In this document: piece by piece, positions 1,577 to 23,171 of the stretch
Layout of the letters: every line of letters begins with the position of its first letter
Position numbering within the stretch: the stretch's first letter is position 1
Origin: Verrucomicrobiales bacterium
Lineage (GTDB): Bacteria; Verrucomicrobiota; Verrucomicrobiia; Limisphaerales; CANJXF01
DNA length: 33,365 nt
Direction: 5' to 3'
Assembly: GCA_947478865.1 (NCBI GenBank)
Contig: CANJXF010000045.1
Coordinates: forward strand, 1 to 33,365
Translations under genes and position numbers: made by a program
Notes under the pieces: model-generated
What the model was told of the DNA's origin: nothing
The model's input: only the letters and a program-made list of their open reading frames with translations
Database searches by the model: none

Positions 1577-2938
1577 CTAAAGCTCCCAGTCGGTCCACGT
1601 CACCAGGTCGCCGAGGCTGGGTCGGCCGTCGTGGCGCCAGAGCAGGGGCGGGTTTTGCATTTGGCCGAGCGGACAAATTCGCGTCGCGCCCCAGTGCGCG
1701 AGGTCGTTGGCGATTTCCTGCGCGCGATTTTCGGTGGCCGCGATACCGACTGTTGAAATTTTGGCGCGCACGGCATCAGCGCCTTCCAAAGCCTGTTTCA
1801 AGTTGCCGACGGCCTTCACATAGATAAAGCGATTCAGACAGGAGATCTGGAAACGGGGATCATTTTCGAACACGACAGTCCACGCCGTCGAGCCATGGCT
1901 GCTCCATAGCCGCGTGTCGAGGGAATGGGCGGCGCGGACTTCGTAAAACGATCGGCGATAGGCAATGGCCGCTGCTTCCTCCGTGGACAAAATTCCGCGC
2001 GGCTGTTGCTGTTCGAGGCGATCCAACTCCGCCGCGAGCATTTCGGCGAATTGCTCCGGAGAAATTTTTCCGCCGGTCTCCACGTAGATGACGTGCGGCG
2101 ACAGGCAACCCAGCTGGTTCCACGCCACGATATCGTGCGCGGCGCGTGAGATGATTCGCTGCGGGCTCATTCCCGAAAGAACCTCGGCGGTCACAAAGGC
2201 AAAACTCAAGCGATGGCCAAAGCCGATAAAGCGGACTTTCGGCGGCAACCGACGGCGAATGGTTTCCAATGTTTCATCGCTGCCGGTGGCGGTGAGTGTA
2301 TTCGTCTCGGCGTAGAGCGCGGTCTCCAACGATTCATTGCCGCCTTTCCACTCGGCAATTTCCAGGCAGGCGCCGAGTTTTGGTTCCGCTTCGTAAATCG
2401 AGTGGGCGAACAGGCGCGGGACAAACGCCGTTCCGCTGGCGCATTTCACAAATTGAGCGGAGCGCGTGAGGAAGCCGAAAATGATGCTGGTCAAGGTCGC
2501 GTTCGGGATGCATCCGCCGGTGATGTGAGTGAGCAATTCCGGGCCGCGCGCGAAGGAAGCTCGATTCATCTTCTGCTCGGCTGCTGTGGCGCTCAGAGTG
2601 TCGAGTCGCCGCCCTTCGCCGAATTCCTGTAACATCAGGGCTTGCAAATTTTCTGCCGTGATCTGCTGGAAAAACGCGTCCAAACCCGTTGCCAGCGTTT
2701 CGCGGGTGAACCCGGTGGCCGCGGGTCCAAGCCGAAGGGTTTCCTGGCGAAATGCGTCGTCTGGTTCCAGCCAGTTCTTCGCCACGCTGGAAATGACACG
2801 AATCAAATTCTGGGTCGTGCGTGTCGCCAGATAGTTCTCCCGATTCTTCTTCAGCGTTTGGCACGCGTCGCTGATGACCGTGGGAGTCAACGCGGTGTTC
2901 TCAGGCAGATCGGCCAGGAAATAATTCGGCAGATTCAT
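1577..2938 (-). CDS. LuxC-like acyl-CoA reductase
   Basis: This 453-residue protein matches the LuxC acyl-CoA reductase family (aldehyde-dehydrogenase fold), which reduces a fatty acyl group passed through an enzyme thioester to an aldehyde using NADPH. The likely nucleophile is Cys278 in NQLGCLSP, the conserved LuxC-type active-site segment. The C-terminus keeps the family signature HDGRPSLGDLVTWTDWE. Length is close to luminous-bacterium LuxC (about 480). Its ATG overlaps the TGA of the upstream MFS gene (ATGA at 2938-2935), so the two are translationally coupled. A LuxE-like gene lies upstream in the same operon. There is no LuxA, LuxB or LuxD, so light production is not expected; the aldehyde product is probably an intermediate of some other pathway. 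The family call is firm; the substrate is unknown. Confidence 0.88.
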   Translation of the reverse strand: MNLPNYFLADLPENTALTPTVISDACQTLKKNRENYLATRTTQNLIRVISSVAKNWLEPDDAFRQETLRLGPAATGFTRETLATGLDAFFQQITAENLQALMLQEFGEGRRLDTLSATAAEQKMNRASFARGPELLTHITGGCIPNATLTSIIFGFLTRSAQFVKCASGTAFVPRLFAHSIYEAEPKLGACLEIAEWKGGNESLETALYAETNTLTATGSDETLETIRRRLPPKVRFIGFGHRLSFAFVTAEVLSGMSPQRIISRAAHDIVAWNQLGCLSPHVIYVETGGKISPEQFAEMLAAELDRLEQQQPRGILSTEEAAAIAYRRSFYEVRAAHSLDTRLWSSHGSTAWTVVFENDPRFQISCLNRFIYVKAVGNLKQALEGADAVRAKISTVGIAATENRAQEIANDLAHWGATRICPLGQMQNPPLLWRHDGRPSLGDLVTWTDWEL

Positions 2939-4188
2939 TTGGGTTCACCTCGTGCGGCGACGGGGAGAGGTTGTTCGACGTGCTCCAGAATCTCTTTTTT
3001 TCGGATCGCATGCAGGCAAGGCAAACCGATGAGCGACAGCAAAACGAAAATGGCGAGCAGGCCGAAAATCGGAAAGTAGGCCGAGGTTAGCTGGCTCTGT
3101 TCGCCCAAATGTTTGACCCAGTATCCCACCGCCCAATGGGACAGGTTGCCGATCAATCCGCCCACGGTGATAAATAATCCGAAGACCCGGCCGCGCACGG
3201 AATCGTGCACCGATTCCATGATTGCCGCCTCGACCATTGGATAGCTCGCCATGAAAAAGAATCCGTAGATTGCAAGAGTCGGGATAATCCAGTTTTTTGA
3301 GACGTGCGGAAAAATCGCCATCATCACCGCAGCGATAAAAAGCACCAGGCTCGTCCATTTCATCCGTCCGCCGTCGCTCAGGCCGCCGAAAAGCGGATTG
3401 CTAATGGCTGAAGCCATGAAAATTCCAGAGAGCGCCAGGCCGGTGAATTTCGGGCTCAGACCGTGCCCCTGCTGGAGAAACAGCGATGACAAACTTCCCG
3501 TGCCGCTCCCGGCGAAATCGCGCAGGCTGAACGCGAAGCTGGCCGCGATGAAAAAGAGCCAGAGCGCGGGGGTTGGGAACATCTTTTCGGTCGGCTTTGA
3601 CAGGTGCGTTTCCGATTCCGGCAACCGATCTTCCTCCGCCAGCCAATAGAAGATGGCCGCAGCGATGATGCCCAACACGCCCAGTTCGAGAACCGGATCG
3701 CGCCAGCTTCCATGCACGGCGCGCCAGCCCGAATAAATCGGGCTGAAACAAAAGCCCGCGCTCGCGCCGATTCCGACGAGTCCAAGCGCCCGGCCGGTGC
3801 CGACGGGATACAAGCGCGCCACCAGAGCCGTGGCCGCGGGGTGATAGAAACTTCCTCCCAGGCCCGCGATGACGACGCACAGCAACGCGATGGAATAGCT
3901 CGGCGCAAACGAAAGGCCAACGAAACCAAGGCCGTTGATGGCGAGGCCGTAGGCCAGAAGTTTCTTGCGGCTGACGCGATCGGCCAGGATTCCCATCAGG
4001 TAGCTCGGTAGAAAATACGAAAGCCCCATGACGGTGACGAGCAGCGTGGCGGCTTCGACGCTGGCGAGTTGAAAATCTTTTTGGATCAACAGATAAAGCG
4101 GGATCAGCGCGACATGGTAAATGTGCGTGAACGCATGCAACGCGCCGCAGAGCCAGAGCGTTCTGATTTTGCTGTTCTTGTTTTCCAT
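2935..4188 (-). CDS. MFS transporter, fosmidomycin-resistance-like
   Basis: A 417-residue integral membrane protein with about 12 hydrophobic segments. The major-facilitator motif A lies in the loop after the second helix (GILADRVSRKKLL). The start, with LWLCGALHAFTHIYHVALIP, resembles the Fsr (fosmidomycin resistance) group, in which an HxxxH-rich first helix is typical. It is probably a proton-driven exporter. The gene sits between the LuxE-like and LuxC-like genes on the same strand: 69 bases after the LuxE-like stop, and overlapping the LuxC-like start by four bases. This suggests it moves a substrate or product of that pathway, though that is inference from position. The ATG at 4188 has no clear ribosome binding site. 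Confidence 0.9.
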   Translation of the reverse strand: MENKNSKIRTLWLCGALHAFTHIYHVALIPLYLLIQKDFQLASVEAATLLVTVMGLSYFLPSYLMGILADRVSRKKLLAYGLAINGLGFVGLSFAPSYSIALLCVVIAGLGGSFYHPAATALVARLYPVGTGRALGLVGIGASAGFCFSPIYSGWRAVHGSWRDPVLELGVLGIIAAAIFYWLAEEDRLPESETHLSKPTEKMFPTPALWLFFIAASFAFSLRDFAGSGTGSLSSLFLQQGHGLSPKFTGLALSGIFMASAISNPLFGGLSDGGRMKWTSLVLFIAAVMMAIFPHVSKNWIIPTLAIYGFFFMASYPMVEAAIMESVHDSVRGRVFGLFITVGGLIGNLSHWAVGYWVKHLGEQSQLTSAYFPIFGLLAIFVLLSLIGLPCLHAIRKKEILEHVEQPLPVAARGEPK

Positions 4189-4257
4189 CGTGTGAAGGCC
4201 GGGTGGAATTAGCCACAGTTGCGCCGGAATTTCACGGTTTGTTTTTGTCGCGTGAAT

Positions 4258-5412
4258 TTATTTAGCCATCAACGAGCAGCCACGCGGTTCCGCCAGGGTG
4301 GCGCGGCCAACCAGTTCGAATCCATCGCCGCGCCGGACTCCCAAGTCTTCGGTCTGCACGGCAAGAATCGAAAAGACGTTCGCCAGATCGATCAGGCGAA
4401 TCAAACCGGTTTCCCCTTCGCTCACTTCGCGCCCGGTTTCGGGAGAAATAATCTGGGCGCGAGTCCAAGGAGGGAAATGAAAGCGCCGAGCCTCTTGCGG
4501 TTGCGCTTGTTTTAATTCGGCCGATTCAAATTCAATCGCGCGATCATACGCTTGAGAACTCAGTTCGCTCATGCCGTATTCGCAGACAATGTGCGACGGG
4601 GAAATTCCCAAATGTTTCGTGATGAGCTGATGCAGCTCCGTCTTGGGCATCGAGCGCGACCGCCCTTTGTAGCCGCCCGTTTCCAGAACACGCGAGCCAG
4701 CCGCGAGCCGGTAGCGAATGTTGCCGGCGGCGAAATGATCGAGCAGATGCACGAATGAAAAAGCGGTTCCGAGAATGGCGACGGGACGATTGGCGCACAT
4801 GGATTTGCGCACGGCGAAAAGGGTTTGCTCGATATCCAGCGCCCATGAATTGGTGTCGTCGAGTCGCCCGCAAAAAACGGAATCGCGCGAACCCAGCCGG
4901 GTGCGAACCGTCTCGAACATGTGGACGAGCGACGAATGCGGCGCGAGGGCAGGGGACGGTGTCAGAAAAATGAAACCCGGTTTATCGATCGGGCCAACGA
5001 GTTCGTTTTCGGCCAACTCATCCCAGTCCGCGAGGAAATGCCGCTGAAACCACGGGAGCAGCGATGCTTCGTAAACCGCGAGTGATTCCGCATTGTGAAA
5101 GTGGCGACTTGGAATTTGCTCGGTCGTTCCGCTGGAATGGAAAACCCGGGTTCGCTGTTCGGGCGGCAGGCTGGACAGCTCAAGCTCCTTGAAGGCGCTC
5201 GTTGGAAGAGCCGGGATTTCCCTCCAGTCGTTGAGATTGCCGGGAGAAATATTGCGACTTCCGCAGAACTGCCGATACGGTTCGACTGACGCAAATTGCA
5301 GGGCGAATAGGGACAATGCCAACTGGTTGAACCGCTCTTCGGTCGGCTGCTGGTCTTTGATGAATGCGCTGAGCGCATCCGCAAAATCGTAGAAAGATAA
5401 AATGGTGTTCAC
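4258..5412 (-). CDS. LuxE-like acyl-protein synthetase
   Basis: A protein of the LuxE acyl-protein synthetase family (adenylate-forming). In the lux system LuxE activates a fatty acid with ATP and hands the acyl group to LuxC. The nucleotide-binding stretch SSGTTEQ is at residues 93-99, and the later segments GSRVLETGGYKGRSR and CEYGMSELSSQAYD are typical of the family. A GTG start at 5412 gives 384 residues, close to the family length. The same frame is open to a TTG at 5493, which would add 27 unconserved-looking residues; neither start has a clear ribosome binding site. It is the first gene of a three-gene operon with the MFS and LuxC-like genes, and divergent from the exported protein at 5598. 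The natural substrate may be a fatty acid or another carboxylate. Confidence 0.87.
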   Translation of the reverse strand: MNTILSFYDFADALSAFIKDQQPTEERFNQLALSLFALQFASVEPYRQFCGSRNISPGNLNDWREIPALPTSAFKELELSSLPPEQRTRVFHSSGTTEQIPSRHFHNAESLAVYEASLLPWFQRHFLADWDELAENELVGPIDKPGFIFLTPSPALAPHSSLVHMFETVRTRLGSRDSVFCGRLDDTNSWALDIEQTLFAVRKSMCANRPVAILGTAFSFVHLLDHFAAGNIRYRLAAGSRVLETGGYKGRSRSMPKTELHQLITKHLGISPSHIVCEYGMSELSSQAYDRAIEFESAELKQAQPQEARRFHFPPWTRAQIISPETGREVSEGETGLIRLIDLANVFSILAVQTEDLGVRRGDGFELVGRATLAEPRGCSLMAK

Positions 5413-9463: not shown

Positions 9464-10222
9464 CTACTTTGCGGGGATCAGTTGCAGACCGCAGATCATC
9501 GCATCGGCAAAGGTGCGCCCCGAAGGATCGGTAACCTGGCCGCCCGGACGGATGAGAATTTCAATTTTCTCGCCCGCAGCTACTTTCACCGCGGGGAATT
9601 TGACATATTGGCTGCCTTCAACCCATCGGGTGTTTTCCGCCGCATCGTCATTGGCTGAGGTTTTTTTGCGGCCGTAATCGCGGCCGCTGGCAAACACGGA
9701 ATAGTCACCGTAATAGAGCGGGGTGGTGCCATGGCCGTAAATGTAGAGGGAATAAGTGCCGGCGGGCACGTGATAGAGAATCACCCGGGAGTTGCCGCCT
9801 CGGTTGTTCACCGGGTAGTTGAAACTGTCCAGCATCGGAGCTTTGACGCCCATCCGCCCCCCGTTGCCCCAACTGCCGCCCAGGTTGATCAATTGGACCT
9901 CGATCGGGCTGGGTTGGCCGTTGGCAAACTTGAGGTCGGACTCGGTGTGGTCGCTATTGAAACCGATGGTGACCGAGTTCCAAAAATCTCCCGCATGCCC
10001 TGCTGCCGCCGGACCTACCTGTTTGGAGGAGTCTGACCTTCCGGGGCCGAAATCGATGTTGAAGGTTTGCGGCTTGGAATCTGTTTTGGAGATGCGGGCG
10101 GACGGTTTTGAATCCAACGCGGCCTCCTGGGCCGGGGCGGCTGGCTGGATTTGGATGACAATGCAGCCGGTGATGGCGATGGCAGCCAGGCAAACGATGA
10201 GCGGGAGGACGAGCCTTTTCAT
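9464..10222 (-). CDS. Hypothetical lipoprotein
   Basis: A 252-residue protein of unknown function. The start MKRLVLPLIVCLAAIAITGC is a lipoprotein signal with the lipobox ITGC, giving a lipidated Cys20. A low-complexity Pro/Ala/Ser linker follows, then a beta-rich domain with many aromatic and Gly residues (for example YHVPAGTYSLYIYGHG), which looks like a carbohydrate-binding or surface-display fold, though no family is recognised. AAGGAA about 8 bases before the ATG is a good ribosome binding site, and a strong extended -10 promoter lies about 85 bases upstream. It is therefore probably transcribed on its own, although the isomerase-like gene lies on the same strand upstream. It is probably anchored in the outer membrane. 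Confidence 0.85.
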   Translation of the reverse strand: MKRLVLPLIVCLAAIAITGCIVIQIQPAAPAQEAALDSKPSARISKTDSKPQTFNIDFGPGRSDSSKQVGPAAAGHAGDFWNSVTIGFNSDHTESDLKFANGQPSPIEVQLINLGGSWGNGGRMGVKAPMLDSFNYPVNNRGGNSRVILYHVPAGTYSLYIYGHGTTPLYYGDYSVFASGRDYGRKKTSANDDAAENTRWVEGSQYVKFPAVKVAAGEKIEILIRPGGQVTDPSGRTFADAMICGLQLIPAK

Positions 10223-10307
10223 AAGCTTAAGTTCCTTCGGTTTGTCTCATGTGTTTTGGCTGCCTGATGCTTCTTCTTCCGCATCCGCCGGTTTCTCGCT
10301 GTGCCTA

Positions 10308-10336
10308 ATTATAGCAGATTTTGATAAGCCAGCCAG
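10308..10336 (-). promoter_or_regulatory. Predicted sigma70-type extended -10 promoter for the lipoprotein gene
   Basis: On the minus strand TATAAT is at 10313-10308, preceded by TG at the extended -10 position (TGCTATAAT). With a 17-base spacer the -35 position holds CTGGCT, a poor match, but an extended -10 can compensate. The predicted transcript would start near 10301, leaving a leader of about 80 bases before the lipoprotein ATG. It overlaps the stop of the upstream isomerase-like gene. Confidence 0.45.
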
Positions 10337-11202
10337 ATCGAGCGAAAATATTTCAGCACCCGAACCGGGTCCTGACTCTCGGGGATTTCGGCGAGGCAAT
10401 AGCCGGAGAACCCGCTTTCGTTCAAACGCGTCAGCAGTTTTCGGAACGGATATTCGTCGAGATAAAGGTCGCGCATATGACATGTGAAAATCTTTTTCTT
10501 CAGCAGGTCAAAATTACGATCAAACCCTTCGCCATCGAGATCCGATTGGTTGGAATTCCAGCAGACACCAACGTTGGGGTGGTCGGCGGTGTCCATGATG
10601 CTTTTGATGTTGGGCACTAGCGACGTTTCTTTCCCATGCACTTCGAGCCGGATTTGCACGCCGTGGCCGGCCGCAAATCCGCCCACTTCGCGCAGGGACC
10701 GGCCGATTTGTTCCAGCGTTTTTTCCTTGGGCACCTCTGCGGGAAAACCGTTTGGCCGAACTTTGACCCCAGGCGCACCGACATCGTGCGCAAGGACGAT
10801 GTATTCTTTCGTCGCTGCGATATCGGCGCGCAGCTTGGCCGGATCCGGCGTGTGGTAGTCAAACGCGCTGCCCAAACCCATCAGCTCCACGGCGGAATTG
10901 CGAAAGCGCTTCTTCACCTCTTCGCGTTTTTCCTTGTTCAACGAAACCTCCACTCCATGCGCGTGCGAGGTGCGCAGTTCCGCTCCTTGAAACTTCGCCT
11001 CCGTGCAATTTTTTATAAGCGTCGGGACGTCCCAGTCCTTGGCGATGTTGTAGGTCACAATACCCAGCTTCATCTTCGAAGGATGGAGGATGAAACTGGG
11101 TTGCCTGGCTGGCTCCGCCGCGAGGGCGGAGCGGCCCAAGGCCGCGGTCGCACCGAGGGCTAAACCGGCTGATTTTAAAAACTGGCGACGATGGATATTC
11201 AT
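10309..11202 (-). CDS. Tat-exported sugar phosphate isomerase/epimerase-like TIM barrel
   Basis: A 297-residue xylose-isomerase-like TIM-barrel protein (AP endonuclease family 2 fold), a group that isomerises or epimerises sugars, inosose or related compounds. The N-terminus is a twin-arginine signal (HRRQFLKS, then AGLALGATAALG, cleavage near ALAAEP). Barrel strands carry metal-site-type residues: ELRTSHAHG, VGVCWNSNQSDLDGEG, TCHMRDLYLDEYPF and CLAEIPES. The ATG at 11202 places the RR motif correctly; an in-frame GTG at 11223 overlaps the stop of the upstream gene (GTGA) and could be the translated start. It follows the Gfo/Idh/MocA gene directly and almost certainly shares its transcript. 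Export of both enzymes suggests they act on a sugar or cyclitol in the periplasm. Confidence 0.88.
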   Translation of the reverse strand: MNIHRRQFLKSAGLALGATAALGRSALAAEPARQPSFILHPSKMKLGIVTYNIAKDWDVPTLIKNCTEAKFQGAELRTSHAHGVEVSLNKEKREEVKKRFRNSAVELMGLGSAFDYHTPDPAKLRADIAATKEYIVLAHDVGAPGVKVRPNGFPAEVPKEKTLEQIGRSLREVGGFAAGHGVQIRLEVHGKETSLVPNIKSIMDTADHPNVGVCWNSNQSDLDGEGFDRNFDLLKKKIFTCHMRDLYLDEYPFRKLLTRLNESGFSGYCLAEIPESQDPVRVLKYFRSIWLAYQNLL

Positions 11203-11219
11203 AGATTTGGCTGAATAGC

Positions 11220-12563
11220 TCACGCCAGCTGCGGAACCTCAAAGCCCGCGCGATACTCGCGCTTTGACATGGCATTGGCCTCGTTGTCTTTGAACTTTTC
11301 CGTCTTCGGATCAAATTCCAGCGAGCGGCCGACGCGATAGGAAATGTTGCCCAGGTGGCAGTGAACACACGATTCATGGGCATCGAGCGTTGAGACCGCC
11401 ATGTCCTCGGTTTTGCGTGAACGGATCGCGCGGAAGAAGTGTTCCCACTTGCCGTCTTTGTCCGGCTTGGGAAGATCCGCAGGAAGCGGAATTGCCTCAT
11501 GTCCGATCGACTTGTCCTTCTTGGTTTCCTTGTAGCTGAAGAAACCTCGGTCAACGACATAGTAACCTTTGGTGCCGAAGAAACTGTTGCCGCAATTGCC
11601 TGCTTCAGCTTCCGGGAAGGAGCCGAGGTTTCGCACCTGGAAAGTCAGAATCGAACCGTCGGGATAGGTGAAGGTCGTGGCCTGCGTGTTGGGAGTCTGC
11701 CCGGCATCATCCAGCCCGAAGCGTCCGCCAGAGCTGAAAACTTTGACCGGCAATCCGCGATTGTGGCCCCAGCAGGCAATATCCATTTGATGCACGCCTT
11801 GGTTGCCGATTTCACCATTGCCGTATTGCCAGAAGTAATGCCAGTCATAGTGGACAAACAGACCGGGCTTCTTGCGTTCGGTGTTGATCATGAATTCGCG
11901 ATCGCGCGACGGCCCTTGCCACAATTTCCAATCGAGATTGGCGGGAACTGGCCCGGGCTTGCCGTTGCCGATTGAACCGCGATTTCCGTTTTTGTAAACG
12001 TAGCCGCGCGACTCAACAATTTTTCCGATGAATCCGTCGTGGATCAGTTTCATGTCGCGGACCAGAGTGCCGTTGGCGCGGCTTTGGGTGCCGTGATGAA
12101 CGATTTTTCCGTATTTCTTGGCCGCGGCGACGACCTGGCGTCCTTCGTAAATATTATGGGACATCGGTTTTTCCACATAAACATCCTTGCCCGCCTGGCA
12201 GGCCCAAATGCTCGCCAACGAATGCCAATGGTTCGGCGTGGCGATGGTGACCGCATCAATTTCTTTATCCTGCAGCGCCTCGCGAATGTCTTTGTAGAGC
12301 TTCGGCCTTTTGCCCTGGGCGGTCTCAACGATTTTCGCGCCCCGCTCGAGCACCTCGGAATCCACGTCGCATAAGGCCACGTATTCGGCGGCACTTTTCA
12401 TTTCGAGAATGTCGTTAATGTGGCTCCGGCCTTGTCCGTTGAATCCGATGGTGCAAACGCGAATACGATCATTCGCACCGAACACTTTGCCGCGCGCCAT
12501 GGTCCCGGCGACCAGAACCGCGACCGCCGATTTGCCGATGAATTTTCTGCGAGTGATTTCCAT
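11220..12563 (-). CDS. Tat-exported Gfo/Idh/MocA-family oxidoreductase
   Basis: A 447-residue NAD(P)-dependent oxidoreductase of the Gfo/Idh/MocA family. A twin-arginine signal (TRRKFIGK and a following Ala/Val-rich helix) is followed by a Rossmann domain that starts IRVCTIGFNGQGRSH at about residue 34. The family EKP motif is present (VYVEKPMSHN, near residue 131), with the preceding ATPNHWH loop. The C-terminal alpha/beta domain holds the QMDIACWGHN substrate-site segment. Tat export is a known habit of such enzymes in Planctomycetes and Verrucomicrobia, where NAD(P) is carried as a bound cofactor. It lies between the pectate lyase (62 bases upstream) and the TIM-barrel isomerase in one operon, which suggests a role in breaking down uronic acids or related sugars. 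The substrate is not shown by the sequence. Confidence 0.93.
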   Translation of the reverse strand: MEITRRKFIGKSAVAVLVAGTMARGKVFGANDRIRVCTIGFNGQGRSHINDILEMKSAAEYVALCDVDSEVLERGAKIVETAQGKRPKLYKDIREALQDKEIDAVTIATPNHWHSLASIWACQAGKDVYVEKPMSHNIYEGRQVVAAAKKYGKIVHHGTQSRANGTLVRDMKLIHDGFIGKIVESRGYVYKNGNRGSIGNGKPGPVPANLDWKLWQGPSRDREFMINTERKKPGLFVHYDWHYFWQYGNGEIGNQGVHQMDIACWGHNRGLPVKVFSSGGRFGLDDAGQTPNTQATTFTYPDGSILTFQVRNLGSFPEAEAGNCGNSFFGTKGYYVVDRGFFSYKETKKDKSIGHEAIPLPADLPKPDKDGKWEHFFRAIRSRKTEDMAVSTLDAHESCVHCHLGNISYRVGRSLEFDPKTEKFKDNEANAMSKREYRAGFEVPQLA

Positions 12564-12625: not shown

Positions 12626-14296
12626 TCAACTTTTTACCAATGAATTCAAATACTTTTCAAGGTTTGTGTAGCCGTCTCCGCTATCCAGCGCGCCATCGGC
12701 AGGGTTTTTTGGATCCAATCCGTGGCGGCGCTCCCAATCATCGGGCATCCCGTCGTGGTCGAAATCCTGCGGTGCCGGCTTGGATTTTAGTTCCGGCCAG
12801 CCACCCACTTCTTTCTGGGAATCGATAATGCCTTTTTTTCCGCCGCGATAGGTTTCTCCGTAACTGGCGGTTCCCGTGCGTATTTCCTGGATGACGCGTT
12901 CATCCACCGAATCGCGCGGTGAGGAGCAGCCTGCCTGGGCCAGCACCGATTCATAGGCGGCCTCTGCGGTTTGCGTTCTCACGGGGGCGACGACAAATGG
13001 CTGTTTCACCCGCAGCGTCGCTTCGGAAGGCACTCCCTTTTCCGGATGTTTCGCGTTGTCCGCGTAGTCGATGCCGCCTTTCCAATTGTCGGCGGAGATC
13101 CCGGGATAACCCGTCACAAAATTACCGTCGGCAAACATTTTTCCCTCCATGTCATTCTGTTCGAAAATTCTGCGGCGAACATTTTCTGAAGTGGCCGGAC
13201 CGTTCTTGTAATAATTGTTGATCCAGTTGCGCTGCCAGAGCTCGCCGCCGTAGGCGCTCTGGAAACCCCAGTTGTAGATCACGTTGTTTCGGTAATCGAG
13301 CAGGCCGGATTCCTTGTTGCCCGAGGCCCGCGGATTGCGACTGCTATGATGCGCGAGAATATTGTGATGCCACGATCCGCCCGGCCCGCCCCAAAGACCG
13401 CCGTAACCGTGGTCGCCCTTTTTATGCAACGAGTGACTTAAGCTTTCTGTCACCATGCACCATTGCACCGTGGAATTTGCACCTTTGTTGATCGAAAATG
13501 TTTCATCAATGCCCCAGCTCGCCGAGCAATGATCGATGATCAAGTGATCGCCTTTCCCGCCGAAACCATCTTGTTCTTTCCCCTTTTCGTCGCCTGGCCG
13601 GAACCGCACATAACGGATGATCATGTGCTTGGTTTCGAAATTAACCTGGAAATTCTTGATGCAAATTCCATCGCCGGGCGCCGTTTGTCCCGCAATCGTG
13701 AGATACGGATTCACAATCTTAAACTTGGACTGCAGCGGAATCGTCCCGGAGATGCGGAACACGATCGTCCTGGGTTCCTCCGCCGCGCACGCTGCGCGGA
13801 AACTTCCCGGACCGCTGTCATTGAGGTTGGTGACTTCGATTACCCTCCCGCCGCGGCCGCCGATGGTATATTTGCCAAAACCTTCCGCACCGGGGAAGGC
13901 GGGCGCGCGATTCGGCCGAAGATTCGCGAGCGTGACCGTTCCCTCCTTTTCGCCGTATTTCAAATCGTAGAGCCATCCCTCGGGCAGGATTACTTTTTCG
14001 AAGCGGCCTTGAATTCCATCGACGCCAGGCGCGAACAGTTGCAAGACCGAGCTTTCATGCGGTGCGATCTGGCCAGTAAACTGGATTTCCAGCACGCCGC
14101 CCAATTTCCATTTGCCGGAAGTTACCGGTTTCAAAACGGCGTGGTCGTTCACTTGGAAAATCGTTCGGTCACCGGTCGTTTGCCACGTTGACCCCGCCTT
14201 TTTTCTGGTGAATGGATCGCTTTGCCCAGCGCAGTTCCCATTCCAGCCCGCAAAAAGGGCGGCTGAGAGAATCAAAACTCTGCTGGACACGTGCAT
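12626..14296 (-). CDS. Secreted pectate lyase-like protein (parallel beta-helix, PL1-type)
   Basis: A 556-residue exported protein. A Sec signal peptide (hydrophobic VLILSAALFAGW) is followed by a beta-sandwich-like region, then a parallel beta-helix starting near residue 135 (FPGAEGFGKYTIGGRGG). The helix has PL1/pectate-lyase landmarks: VTNLNDSGPGSFRAA, YLTIAGQTAPGDGI, LIIDHCSASWGIDE and NVIYNWG. Near the C-terminus DFDHDGMPDDWERRHGLDP is an Asp-rich thrombospondin-type-3-like calcium repeat, common in secreted proteins of this phylum. AAAGGA six bases before the ATG at 14296 fixes this start; an ATG five codons upstream is less likely. It is the first gene before two Tat-exported sugar enzymes, consistent with pectin or polyuronate breakdown. 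The exact polysaccharide is inference. Confidence 0.9.
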   Translation of the reverse strand: MHVSSRVLILSAALFAGWNGNCAGQSDPFTRKKAGSTWQTTGDRTIFQVNDHAVLKPVTSGKWKLGGVLEIQFTGQIAPHESSVLQLFAPGVDGIQGRFEKVILPEGWLYDLKYGEKEGTVTLANLRPNRAPAFPGAEGFGKYTIGGRGGRVIEVTNLNDSGPGSFRAACAAEEPRTIVFRISGTIPLQSKFKIVNPYLTIAGQTAPGDGICIKNFQVNFETKHMIIRYVRFRPGDEKGKEQDGFGGKGDHLIIDHCSASWGIDETFSINKGANSTVQWCMVTESLSHSLHKKGDHGYGGLWGGPGGSWHHNILAHHSSRNPRASGNKESGLLDYRNNVIYNWGFQSAYGGELWQRNWINNYYKNGPATSENVRRRIFEQNDMEGKMFADGNFVTGYPGISADNWKGGIDYADNAKHPEKGVPSEATLRVKQPFVVAPVRTQTAEAAYESVLAQAGCSSPRDSVDERVIQEIRTGTASYGETYRGGKKGIIDSQKEVGGWPELKSKPAPQDFDHDGMPDDWERRHGLDPKNPADGALDSGDGYTNLEKYLNSLVKS

Positions 14297-14383
14297 AGCA
14301 AATCCTTTCATGGTTCGGGAGCCGGTCGCAAATTTTTTAAGGCTTATTCGTGTGCAATTCCGACGTGAGAAAACGGCACTTTT

Positions 14384-20723: not shown

Positions 20724-23090
20724 CTAGGTTTTTTTCACCGCAAACCGCATCGCTATCTTTTTTCCTTTGAGTGAAGAAATGTCGAGCGTGCCTTTTTCAT
20801 CGATCTTAAATGGCGGATGAGGAATCGCCTCGGCCGAAATGATTTCGGCGGAGATAACTTTCCAACCATCCGGCACACGCACGCGAAGGAGAATTTTTTC
20901 CGCAACATTTCGCTCCGGCAATTCAAGATTCGCCAGCACTTCGCCTTGGCTCAATCTGGATTCCATGCTGAACGAAACGGGGCCGAAAGTCGTCGGCGCG
21001 CGTTCCACCCGGAATTTTTTGCCATCTTCCAACCAGCGCTTGGGCGTGGCGAAGGCGAGGCGCAAGGTGTCGGGCTTGCCGTCGTCGGATACATCCAGAT
21101 CCTGCACGAGCGCGTTGCGGAGCATGGAGAGGAAATGCGAATTCGCGGCGCTGTTTGGCGGCAAAGAGAAGAGCCGTCCGCGTTTGTCCAAGGGCTTGAG
21201 CGAAGCGCCTTCGCCGCAGATGAACGTGTTGCGGGTGAATCCTTGCGCGAGCATTCCGTAGAGCGAAACCAGCGCCCGCTCCGGATCGTCGCGGCGCAAT
21301 GTGTCGAGGGCGTAACGTGTTCCGTAGAGCGGGTTCAGTTTGTATTCCGTATCCCACCAGGTGTTGGACATGCCGCCGGAACGGAGCATGCCCATCGACA
21401 AACCGCCGTGTTGTTCCTGGTAATGCGGAAGCCAATTTTCCTCCGGGCTGCCCACGGGAAAAACTCCGGCCGCAATGGTGTAGCCGATGATGATATTCCA
21501 GTAACTGCCGATGCGAACGTCGCAGATTGGACTATGCACCGGTTCGTTTGTGTAGAGCGCAATCGGAACAAACGGAGGAGTCGTCGAACGGTTCGCGCTC
21601 TTGTCAATCGCAGTCAGGACAGTTTTGCGAAACTCGGTGGCGACTTGTCCGTAATGCTCGGCGGGTTGCGCCTCGCCAATCTCCGTGAGCGCCGTGCTGA
21701 GATCACGCAACGCACGCCAGCCTTTCGAATTCACGTTGAGACTTTGCACCGGCGTGTGGATGTCGCCGCAATATTGTTCCTTTGGAAAAAGTCCGTGATC
21801 GCCCGTGCGATTTTTATCGAGCCGCACGGCCTCCTTTTCCCAGCGCGGACGCATCTCCTGAAAGATCGATGCATCACGCGTTTGCCAATAGTAACGGCAA
21901 ATATTGTTCAACTTGAAACCGGCTTGATGAAACTCCAGGCCCTTGCGCGTGAAATCGAACAGCGGGCCGAGCAGGCGTTTCGTGTCGTTCTCGTAGCCCC
22001 AAACCATCATGGCGAGTGCGGCGTCGCTGCCTTCCGCCTCGTAAAGCGCGTCGTATTGATTGCCGGCGCTGTAGCGCATGCTGTTGCCATTGATCAGTTC
22101 AAAATTCTGCACCAGCAGGTGACGCCACGCGTTGTTGACGATTGGCTCGGGCGTTTCGACGTTCATGCCGCCGCCGAGAATTTTCTGCCAAACCTCGGAG
22201 CAAATTTTTCGTTGCGTCGCGAATGTCGTGCCGTCAATCGAGAACTTCGCCGTCTCCGCGAGCGGCTTGGTTGGAACGGCGATCGTGGCAAAATTGTTCG
22301 TGCCGAGCTTCGCCTGAATATTCGGGTAGCGCCATTTGCCCGCGTTATCGAGCGACTTCTTCCAGCTTTTATCGAAGTAGGCGAGCACCTGTCCCTTGTC
22401 GTTCGTGATCTTTCCATCCTCCACTTTCAAATCCGATTTGGAATCCAGCTCCAGCGTGATTATCCCCGCAGTTCCTTGCGCCAGATTGAATTTCGCAAAG
22501 ACCACCCCGTTGTCCGCGAGCGCAGGATCCGTGCTGGCGAAGGCTTCGAGCTGATAAATTTCCGGCGGGCGGTCAACGCGAACTTGCGAGACAGGAACCA
22601 TTCCTTCAGCGGCAATCGGCGATTGATGCAGGTAACGAAGCGTCACGATGGGCAGGTAACCTTCGGCCAATTCCGGCTCCCCTTGAAGTCGCTCGGGAAA
22701 TCGGCCGAAACCGAGTTCGTCCGGGCCGACGCGGAAAATGGCGGGCGTGCCGTTCTCCTTCCACTGACGTCCGCGCGCAAAGAGATTTACCCCGCTGCCG
22801 TTGGAAATCAGGCGCGCCTTCAACCGCGCGTTTGGCGCGCTCAGAACAATGGGATAGAAATGGAAATCGGCGTTGACGTAGCGCGGCGGCGGCAAAAGCT
22901 TCTCAAAGAATTCATAGCTCGGCCCGTTCGGTTCGCGCATGGCCGCTTCGCCCCACGCATCCGCTTTCGAATGCACCATCTCGTCCCACGACGGGAGGGT
23001 TTCTGATTCTGCGGAAATCGCCGAGGCGAGGATAAGAGAAAAGCCAACGGACGTTGCTGTTTTGAAATTCAGACGGCGGCACGAATACAT
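20724..23090 (-). CDS. Exported six-hairpin glycosidase-like protein
   Basis: A 788-residue protein with a Sec signal (hydrophobic VGFSLILASAISA after a basic start). The central part, about residues 320-660, looks like an (alpha/alpha)6 barrel of the six-hairpin glycosidase type: NNAWRHLLVQNFEL, YDALYEAEGSDAAL, YYWQTRDASIF, SYWNIIIGY and NTWWDTEYKLNPLYGTRYALD. An N-terminal beta region and a C-terminal beta domain flank it. No exact glycoside hydrolase family is assigned; an activity on rhamnose- or uronic-acid-containing polymers is possible. The ATG at 23090 directly precedes the signal peptide, so a frame extension to 23147 is discarded. It lies 81 bases downstream of the aminotransferase on the same strand and converges on the deacetylase-like gene. 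Confidence 0.78.
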   Translation of the reverse strand: MYSCRRLNFKTATSVGFSLILASAISAESETLPSWDEMVHSKADAWGEAAMREPNGPSYEFFEKLLPPPRYVNADFHFYPIVLSAPNARLKARLISNGSGVNLFARGRQWKENGTPAIFRVGPDELGFGRFPERLQGEPELAEGYLPIVTLRYLHQSPIAAEGMVPVSQVRVDRPPEIYQLEAFASTDPALADNGVVFAKFNLAQGTAGIITLELDSKSDLKVEDGKITNDKGQVLAYFDKSWKKSLDNAGKWRYPNIQAKLGTNNFATIAVPTKPLAETAKFSIDGTTFATQRKICSEVWQKILGGGMNVETPEPIVNNAWRHLLVQNFELINGNSMRYSAGNQYDALYEAEGSDAALAMMVWGYENDTKRLLGPLFDFTRKGLEFHQAGFKLNNICRYYWQTRDASIFQEMRPRWEKEAVRLDKNRTGDHGLFPKEQYCGDIHTPVQSLNVNSKGWRALRDLSTALTEIGEAQPAEHYGQVATEFRKTVLTAIDKSANRSTTPPFVPIALYTNEPVHSPICDVRIGSYWNIIIGYTIAAGVFPVGSPEENWLPHYQEQHGGLSMGMLRSGGMSNTWWDTEYKLNPLYGTRYALDTLRRDDPERALVSLYGMLAQGFTRNTFICGEGASLKPLDKRGRLFSLPPNSAANSHFLSMLRNALVQDLDVSDDGKPDTLRLAFATPKRWLEDGKKFRVERAPTTFGPVSFSMESRLSQGEVLANLELPERNVAEKILLRVRVPDGWKVISAEIISAEAIPHPPFKIDEKGTLDISSLKGKKIAMRFAVKKT

Positions 23091-23171
23091 CACGCGATTT
23101 TTACGAAGTCTTTTGGCAGATGCAAAAGGATTCTCAAACAATCTCAATCCGACTAGAATCGTTGGCGGCCG

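Follow-up and report, generated by a model that had tools for sequence, protein, structure and literature searches.

LuxE- and LuxC-type enzymes linked to QueD in Verrucomicrobiota: a likely substitute for QueC and QueF in queuosine synthesis

Background

In the textbook route to queuosine, QueD, the first committed enzyme, and then QueE give 7-carboxy-7-deazaguanine (CDG), QueC and QueF lead on to preQ1 by nitrile formation and reduction, and TGT inserts preQ1 into tRNA, where QueA acts on it and modifies it further. LuxE and LuxC are known from the Photobacterium-type luminescence reductase (7xc6), whose chemistry of ATP activation, acyl-cysteine relay and NADPH reduction to an aldehyde is predicted to be shared by the homologues described here, which belong to the same two families and have the same catalytic cysteines. 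Genes for both are also found in flagellin glycosylation islands of Aeromonas and Enterobacteriaceae, where they likewise occur without luciferase, but among fatty-acid-synthesis and glycan genes and with no queuosine genes reported (PMC4875605, PMC7874193). Here we describe a locus in a 33,365-nucleotide stretch of a Verrucomicrobiales bacterium (GCA_947478865.1, contig CANJXF010000045.1; hereafter the window, which forms contig C45 in an assembly of 4.4 Mb that is 97% complete), in which genes for LuxE, an MFS transporter and LuxC are followed by the gene for QueD.

From the linkage that we observe, and the chemistry that the enzyme families suggest, we consider it highly probable that LuxE and LuxC, acting with a class-III aminotransferase, take the place of QueC and QueF in queuosine synthesis. 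It is accordingly likely that roughly half of 188 sampled genomes of the class reach preQ1 by a second, nitrile-free route, and that the class has changed between the routes several times independently. Searches of open-access full-text literature returned no account of luxC or luxE with queuosine or of an aldehyde route to preQ1, and queries on queuosine, Verrucomicrobia and QueC likewise found no description of the route; it is probably a previously unrecognised pathway variant. If true, it would fill in the queuosine pathway of many genomes where this currently appears interrupted, assign LuxC and LuxE homologues a housekeeping role beyond luminescence and lipids, and correct the annotations 'acyl-CoA reductase' and 'long-chain-fatty-acid ligase'.

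Results and Discussion

The locus and its two catalytic cysteines

The order LuxE, MFS, LuxC, as given by the initial annotation, is genuine: all three genes lie on the minus strand with domain matches, and the ATGA coupling that it described is present at the MFS/LuxC junction, where the MFS stop overlaps the LuxC start. That layout ended one gene early, overlooking QueD, which lies directly downstream of LuxC on the same strand, and hence the pathway. All four genes are confirmed by Pfam and NCBIfam models (for LuxE, PF04443 with 68.6 bits against a cut-off of 24.9; Table 1), and QueD carries the Cys-x3-HGH motif (KCRRLHGH). The window open reading frames that were scanned show no gene resembling a luciferase gene or luxD, the remaining genome not having been searched for luciferase; within this scope the reported lack of luxA, luxB and luxD holds, and the linked genes that would mark a luminescence operon are missing.

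Cys278 of LuxC, singled out earlier as the active-site residue, is part of the segment QLGCLSPH; in an alignment it falls in the active-site region of Photobacterium LuxC (7xc6_A), which the structure model of the protein matches with a template modelling (TM) score of 0.77. It is conserved across families, with one order-level exception (Ala in locus L051), and is intact in 90 of the 92 LuxC genomes of the class. LuxE matches 7xc6_E with an e-value of 7e-14 (3e-33 by profile), and its Cys379, in the segment RGCS, aligns with the region of the acyl-carrying cysteine of 7xc6_E and is found without exception in 17 diverse sequences and in 28 at the level of the order. Both proteins thus show the features of their families, namely the PF05893 domain with an ALDH-like active-site cysteine in LuxC and PF04443 with a C-terminal acyl-accepting cysteine in LuxE. 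In contrast, they score far below the equivalog cut-offs for the luminescence enzymes, LuxC reaching 57.5 of the 750 bits needed for NF052251 and LuxE 62.4 of the 550 bits needed for NF052244. The earlier suggestion of a non-luminescent module that converts a carboxylate to an aldehyde for another pathway is supported, and both catalytic cysteines are conserved.

The LuxE model has a predicted local distance difference test (pLDDT) score of 87, and its nearest folds are PaaK-type aromatic-acid ligases, ClxA and the phenazine-pathway protein EhpF. Given this proximity to the aromatic-acid adenylating enzymes PaaK and EhpF, the substrate could plausibly be a heterocyclic aromatic acid, in place of the fatty acid of the luminescence system. 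In one genome (G118; L112:7028-9205) LuxE and LuxC are fused in a single reading frame, which is consistent with a direct hand-over between the enzymes. Fusions of a different Lux type, with the segment FDQYACASPH and no queuosine context, were also seen (L106:5418-7961, L107:7511-10033); the fused frames of the three loci span 725-847 aa. The exceptional LuxC of L051 (10001-11374) adjoins QueD, has Gln in place of K165 in addition to the lost cysteine, and has no LuxE nearby. In three closely similar loci (L053, L054 and L055; LuxC at 9983-11338) LuxC with an intact cysteine is followed by QueD, and an upstream LuxE was not detected.

Other roles were considered for the locus and discarded. 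Tetrahydrobiopterin synthesis by the PTPS-family protein with the SDR encoded at 314-1033 finds no backing, as the SDR gene is convergent and is not conserved beside QueD; a role as FolB substitute does not fit the motif, which is of the QueD type; and the neighbourhoods offer nothing for a lipid, ether-lipid or wax role, which had been the first idea.

Queuosine genes of the genome

QueD is the sole PTPS-family gene of the genome. TGT is encoded on contig C2 (PF01702, 515 bits), QueA on C53 (PF02547, 441 bits) and QueE on C25, the last scoring 254 bits with TIGR04349, short of the 300-bit cut-off yet higher than with any other family, and carrying the radical-SAM motif CX3CX2C (CNLRCSYC). These four are shared with the standard QueD-QueE-QueC-QueF-TGT-QueA pathway, whereas QueF had no match in the genome and QueC only a chance-level one (PF06508, e-value 8e-4). 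This suggests that the organism should be able to make CDG and use preQ1, while lacking the middle enzymes. A class-III aminotransferase gene (C25:47150-48433) follows QueE, and further genomes of the order have the same pair.

Mutual exclusion with QueC and QueF

We searched the 188 genomes of the class for LuxC, LuxE, PTPS, QueC, QueA, QueF, QueE and the aminotransferase, and combined the resulting tables. LuxC without QueF was observed in 88 genomes, QueF without LuxC in 80, both in 4 and neither in 16 (Fisher 2.5e-31); the corresponding counts for LuxC and QueC are 88, 77, 4 and 19. QueC and QueF travel together, 79 genomes having both. Of the 92 LuxC genomes, 90 have QueA, 89 QueE and 88 QueD. 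Both types of genome occur within seven families, and the direction of the switch is identical in all seven. The contrast extends to within single genera, as between G041, with LuxE-LuxC-QueD and neither QueC nor QueF, and G107, with QueC and QueF, or between G185 and G147.

The aminotransferase follows the same pattern: 83 of the 92 genomes with LuxC have it, and none of the 84 with QueF does (Fisher 2e-37 against QueF), the best match in the latter having an e-value of 1.5e-59 or worse and being far weaker. Given that LuxC and the aminotransferase occur where QueC and QueF are missing, LuxE and LuxC most likely perform the aldehyde step of the queuosine route. The retention of QueA also bears on another end product: phage DNA modification uses 7-deazaguanine derivatives (PMC6884629), and the module might make such a derivative, for DNA modification or as an antibiotic, instead of preQ1 for tRNA. 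With QueA in nearly all LuxC genomes, and preQ1 needing a source where QueC and QueF are lacking, we regard this as very improbable.

Several points weigh against the proposed replacement. The score cut-offs were chosen after the score distributions had been viewed, though the gaps are wide, and the genomes are related, so that the Fisher p-values overstate the association; a conservative sign test over families gives only p 0.016. Pfam detects LuxE in just 54 of the 188 genomes, LuxE being too diverged for it in many, and in several genomes with LuxC (e.g. G001, G018, G036, G076, G161) the vicinity of that gene yielded no LuxE. In nine genomes with LuxC (G007, G066, G072, G078, G131 and the four carriers of both systems) no aminotransferase could be assigned with confidence, and a search for a preQ1 riboswitch found none. 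Further, a divergent QueC-like protein (PF06508, e-values 1e-20 to 1e-33) is encoded in several LuxC genomes, none of them with QueF.

This protein was seen in the QueF-less genomes G005, G012, G021, G030, G055, G066, G072, G161 and G185, and a similar one stands beside true QueC in G033 and G124. Given this coexistence with true QueC, it may represent a paralogue that serves a different purpose.

Genomes with both systems

The aminotransferase is absent from all four genomes that carry LuxC, QueC and QueF. In two of these, G143 and G138, LuxC has lost its active-site cysteine (AWDQFYPGAPH and LFDQHGLFSPH, where QxGCLSP is usual) and no LuxE lies near; the other two carry a different Lux type, G169 having LuxE and LuxC fused (FDQYACASPH), while the LuxE/LuxC pair of G024 shows no recognisable similarity to that of the window by tblastn. 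Loss of the cysteine in the presence of QueC and QueF, against its conservation in the other 90 genomes, gives a Fisher value of 0.0014. The LuxC remnants without the cysteine in two genomes with QueC and QueF lie at L169:6487-7890 and L171:891-2021 (both minus strand), the former still adjoining QueD.

The aminotransferase and the proposed route

The nearest solved relatives of the aminotransferase are putrescine and GABA aminotransferases (putrescine aminotransferase 4uox, e-value 6e-63), and none of the NCBIfam models shown is matched above its cut-off. Putrescine and GABA aminotransferases act on primary amines and their aldehydes, and this kinship suggests that the class suits a primary-amine product. 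Sampling 289 genomes of the phylum gave nine matches at an e-value of 1e-65, every one of them in this class. QueE and the aminotransferase lie within 6 kb of each other in 21 of 59 genomes, and LuxC and the aminotransferase in 12 of 83; in two other families QueE, the aminotransferase, LuxE and LuxC form a single cluster, to which QueD is added in one (L103, L146-L152, L155). Aminotransferase genes beside QueD in L038, L057 and L062 were discounted, those of L038 and L062 being 27-32% identical to the QueE-linked one when aligned.

In the route that we propose, LuxE would adenylate the carboxylate of CDG and bind it as a thioester on Cys379, LuxC would take over the acyl group on Cys278 and reduce it with NADPH to 7-formyl-7-deazaguanine, and the aminotransferase beside QueE would turn this aldehyde into the aminomethyl base preQ1, so that reduction to an aldehyde and transamination would stand in for the nitrile steps. 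Gene content, linkage, the exclusion of QueC and QueF and the conserved catalytic cysteines are observed; which acid is used, that an aldehyde is formed from it and in what order the two final reactions follow are inferred. LuxE and LuxC might instead act on CDG with a different second half, in which another enzyme aminates the aldehyde or the aminotransferase serves elsewhere, so that QueC and QueF would be bypassed in a different order or through a different intermediate; its assigned role is based on co-occurrence and neighbourhood, and its gene is separate from LuxE and LuxC in most genomes. Such a variant appears unlikely, given that the aminotransferase is missing from every QueF genome, sits inside the QueE-LuxE-LuxC clusters of two families and belongs to a class that fits the product.

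Conservation of the locus and the place of the MFS gene

We collected 64 related loci from public metagenome assemblies, mostly of Verrucomicrobiota (Limisphaerales, Pedosphaera), with a few misfit labels that are probably wrong. In 58 of them QueD follows LuxC downstream at a distance of at most 700 bp, and the identity between loci is mostly 74-86% for QueD and 48-68% for LuxC. The initial annotation had treated the MFS gene as an integral part of the module, a view that is not supported: of the 53 loci that show both LuxE and LuxC, only 16 have the gene between the two. Its position and orientation never differ where it is present, and it is scattered over the LuxC tree, with 11 changes, at least 5 of them forced by well-supported branches. 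Thus, although it is not always found between the two genes, it looks like an optional member rather than a random insertion, and we read it as an old member of the locus that has often been lost. About 12 loci (e.g. L003) have a divergent methionyl-tRNA-synthetase-like gene upstream of LuxE.

An MFS protein of Bartonella henselae transports preQ0 and preQ1 (PMC11130926). The likeness to the window protein, of which the domain and the neighbourhood are known, is that of an MFS_1 protein associated with queuosine genes; as a lead only, the window protein may move a queuosine precursor. This has a bearing on a further alternative, in which preQ1 is salvaged from the surroundings, perhaps through the MFS protein, while LuxE and LuxC make a fatty aldehyde or another product for a lipid, glycan or secondary metabolite, their link to QueD being genomic only. 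Some MFS proteins do carry preQ0 or preQ1, and LuxE/LuxC homologues exist without queuosine genes, in the flagellin-glycan islands mentioned above and on a Pantoea dispersa plasmid (L167:5983-9330), where LuxE, LuxC and an SDR are encoded, the first two carrying the annotations fatty acid-CoA ligase and acyl-CoA reductase. However, most of our loci are without the MFS gene, and pure salvage leaves unexplained why QueD and QueE are retained, why QueE lies inside LuxE-LuxC clusters, why LuxC and the aminotransferase exclude QueC and QueF, and why LuxC loses its cysteine where QueC and QueF exist. We therefore consider salvage quite improbable, and favour replacement of QueC and QueF by LuxE, LuxC and the aminotransferase. 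Plasmids hold LuxE relatives, the Pantoea dispersa neighbourhood being the sole annotated one read, and a search of viral contigs for such relatives found none.

Table 1. Position and domain matches of the four genes in the window
Gene product	Coordinates	Strand	Length and features
LuxE-type acyl-protein synthetase	4258-5412	minus	384 aa from GTG at 5412; frame open to 5493
MFS transporter	2935-4188	minus	417 aa; MFS_1 PF07690, 142 bits
LuxC-type acyl-thioester reductase	1577-2938	minus	453 aa; PF05893, 229 bits (cut-off 21)
QueD, 6-carboxytetrahydropterin synthase	1051-1410	minus	119 aa; TIGR03367, 101.2 bits (cut-off 89.25)

Elsewhere in the window, an 807-aa frame without a Pfam match lies on the minus strand (20724-23147), and the opposite strand has a 729-aa open frame in the same region (20817-23006, plus strand). 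A 561-aa protein without a Pfam match (12626-14311, minus strand) has partial similarity to the pectate lyase PelZ (132 of 840 bits).

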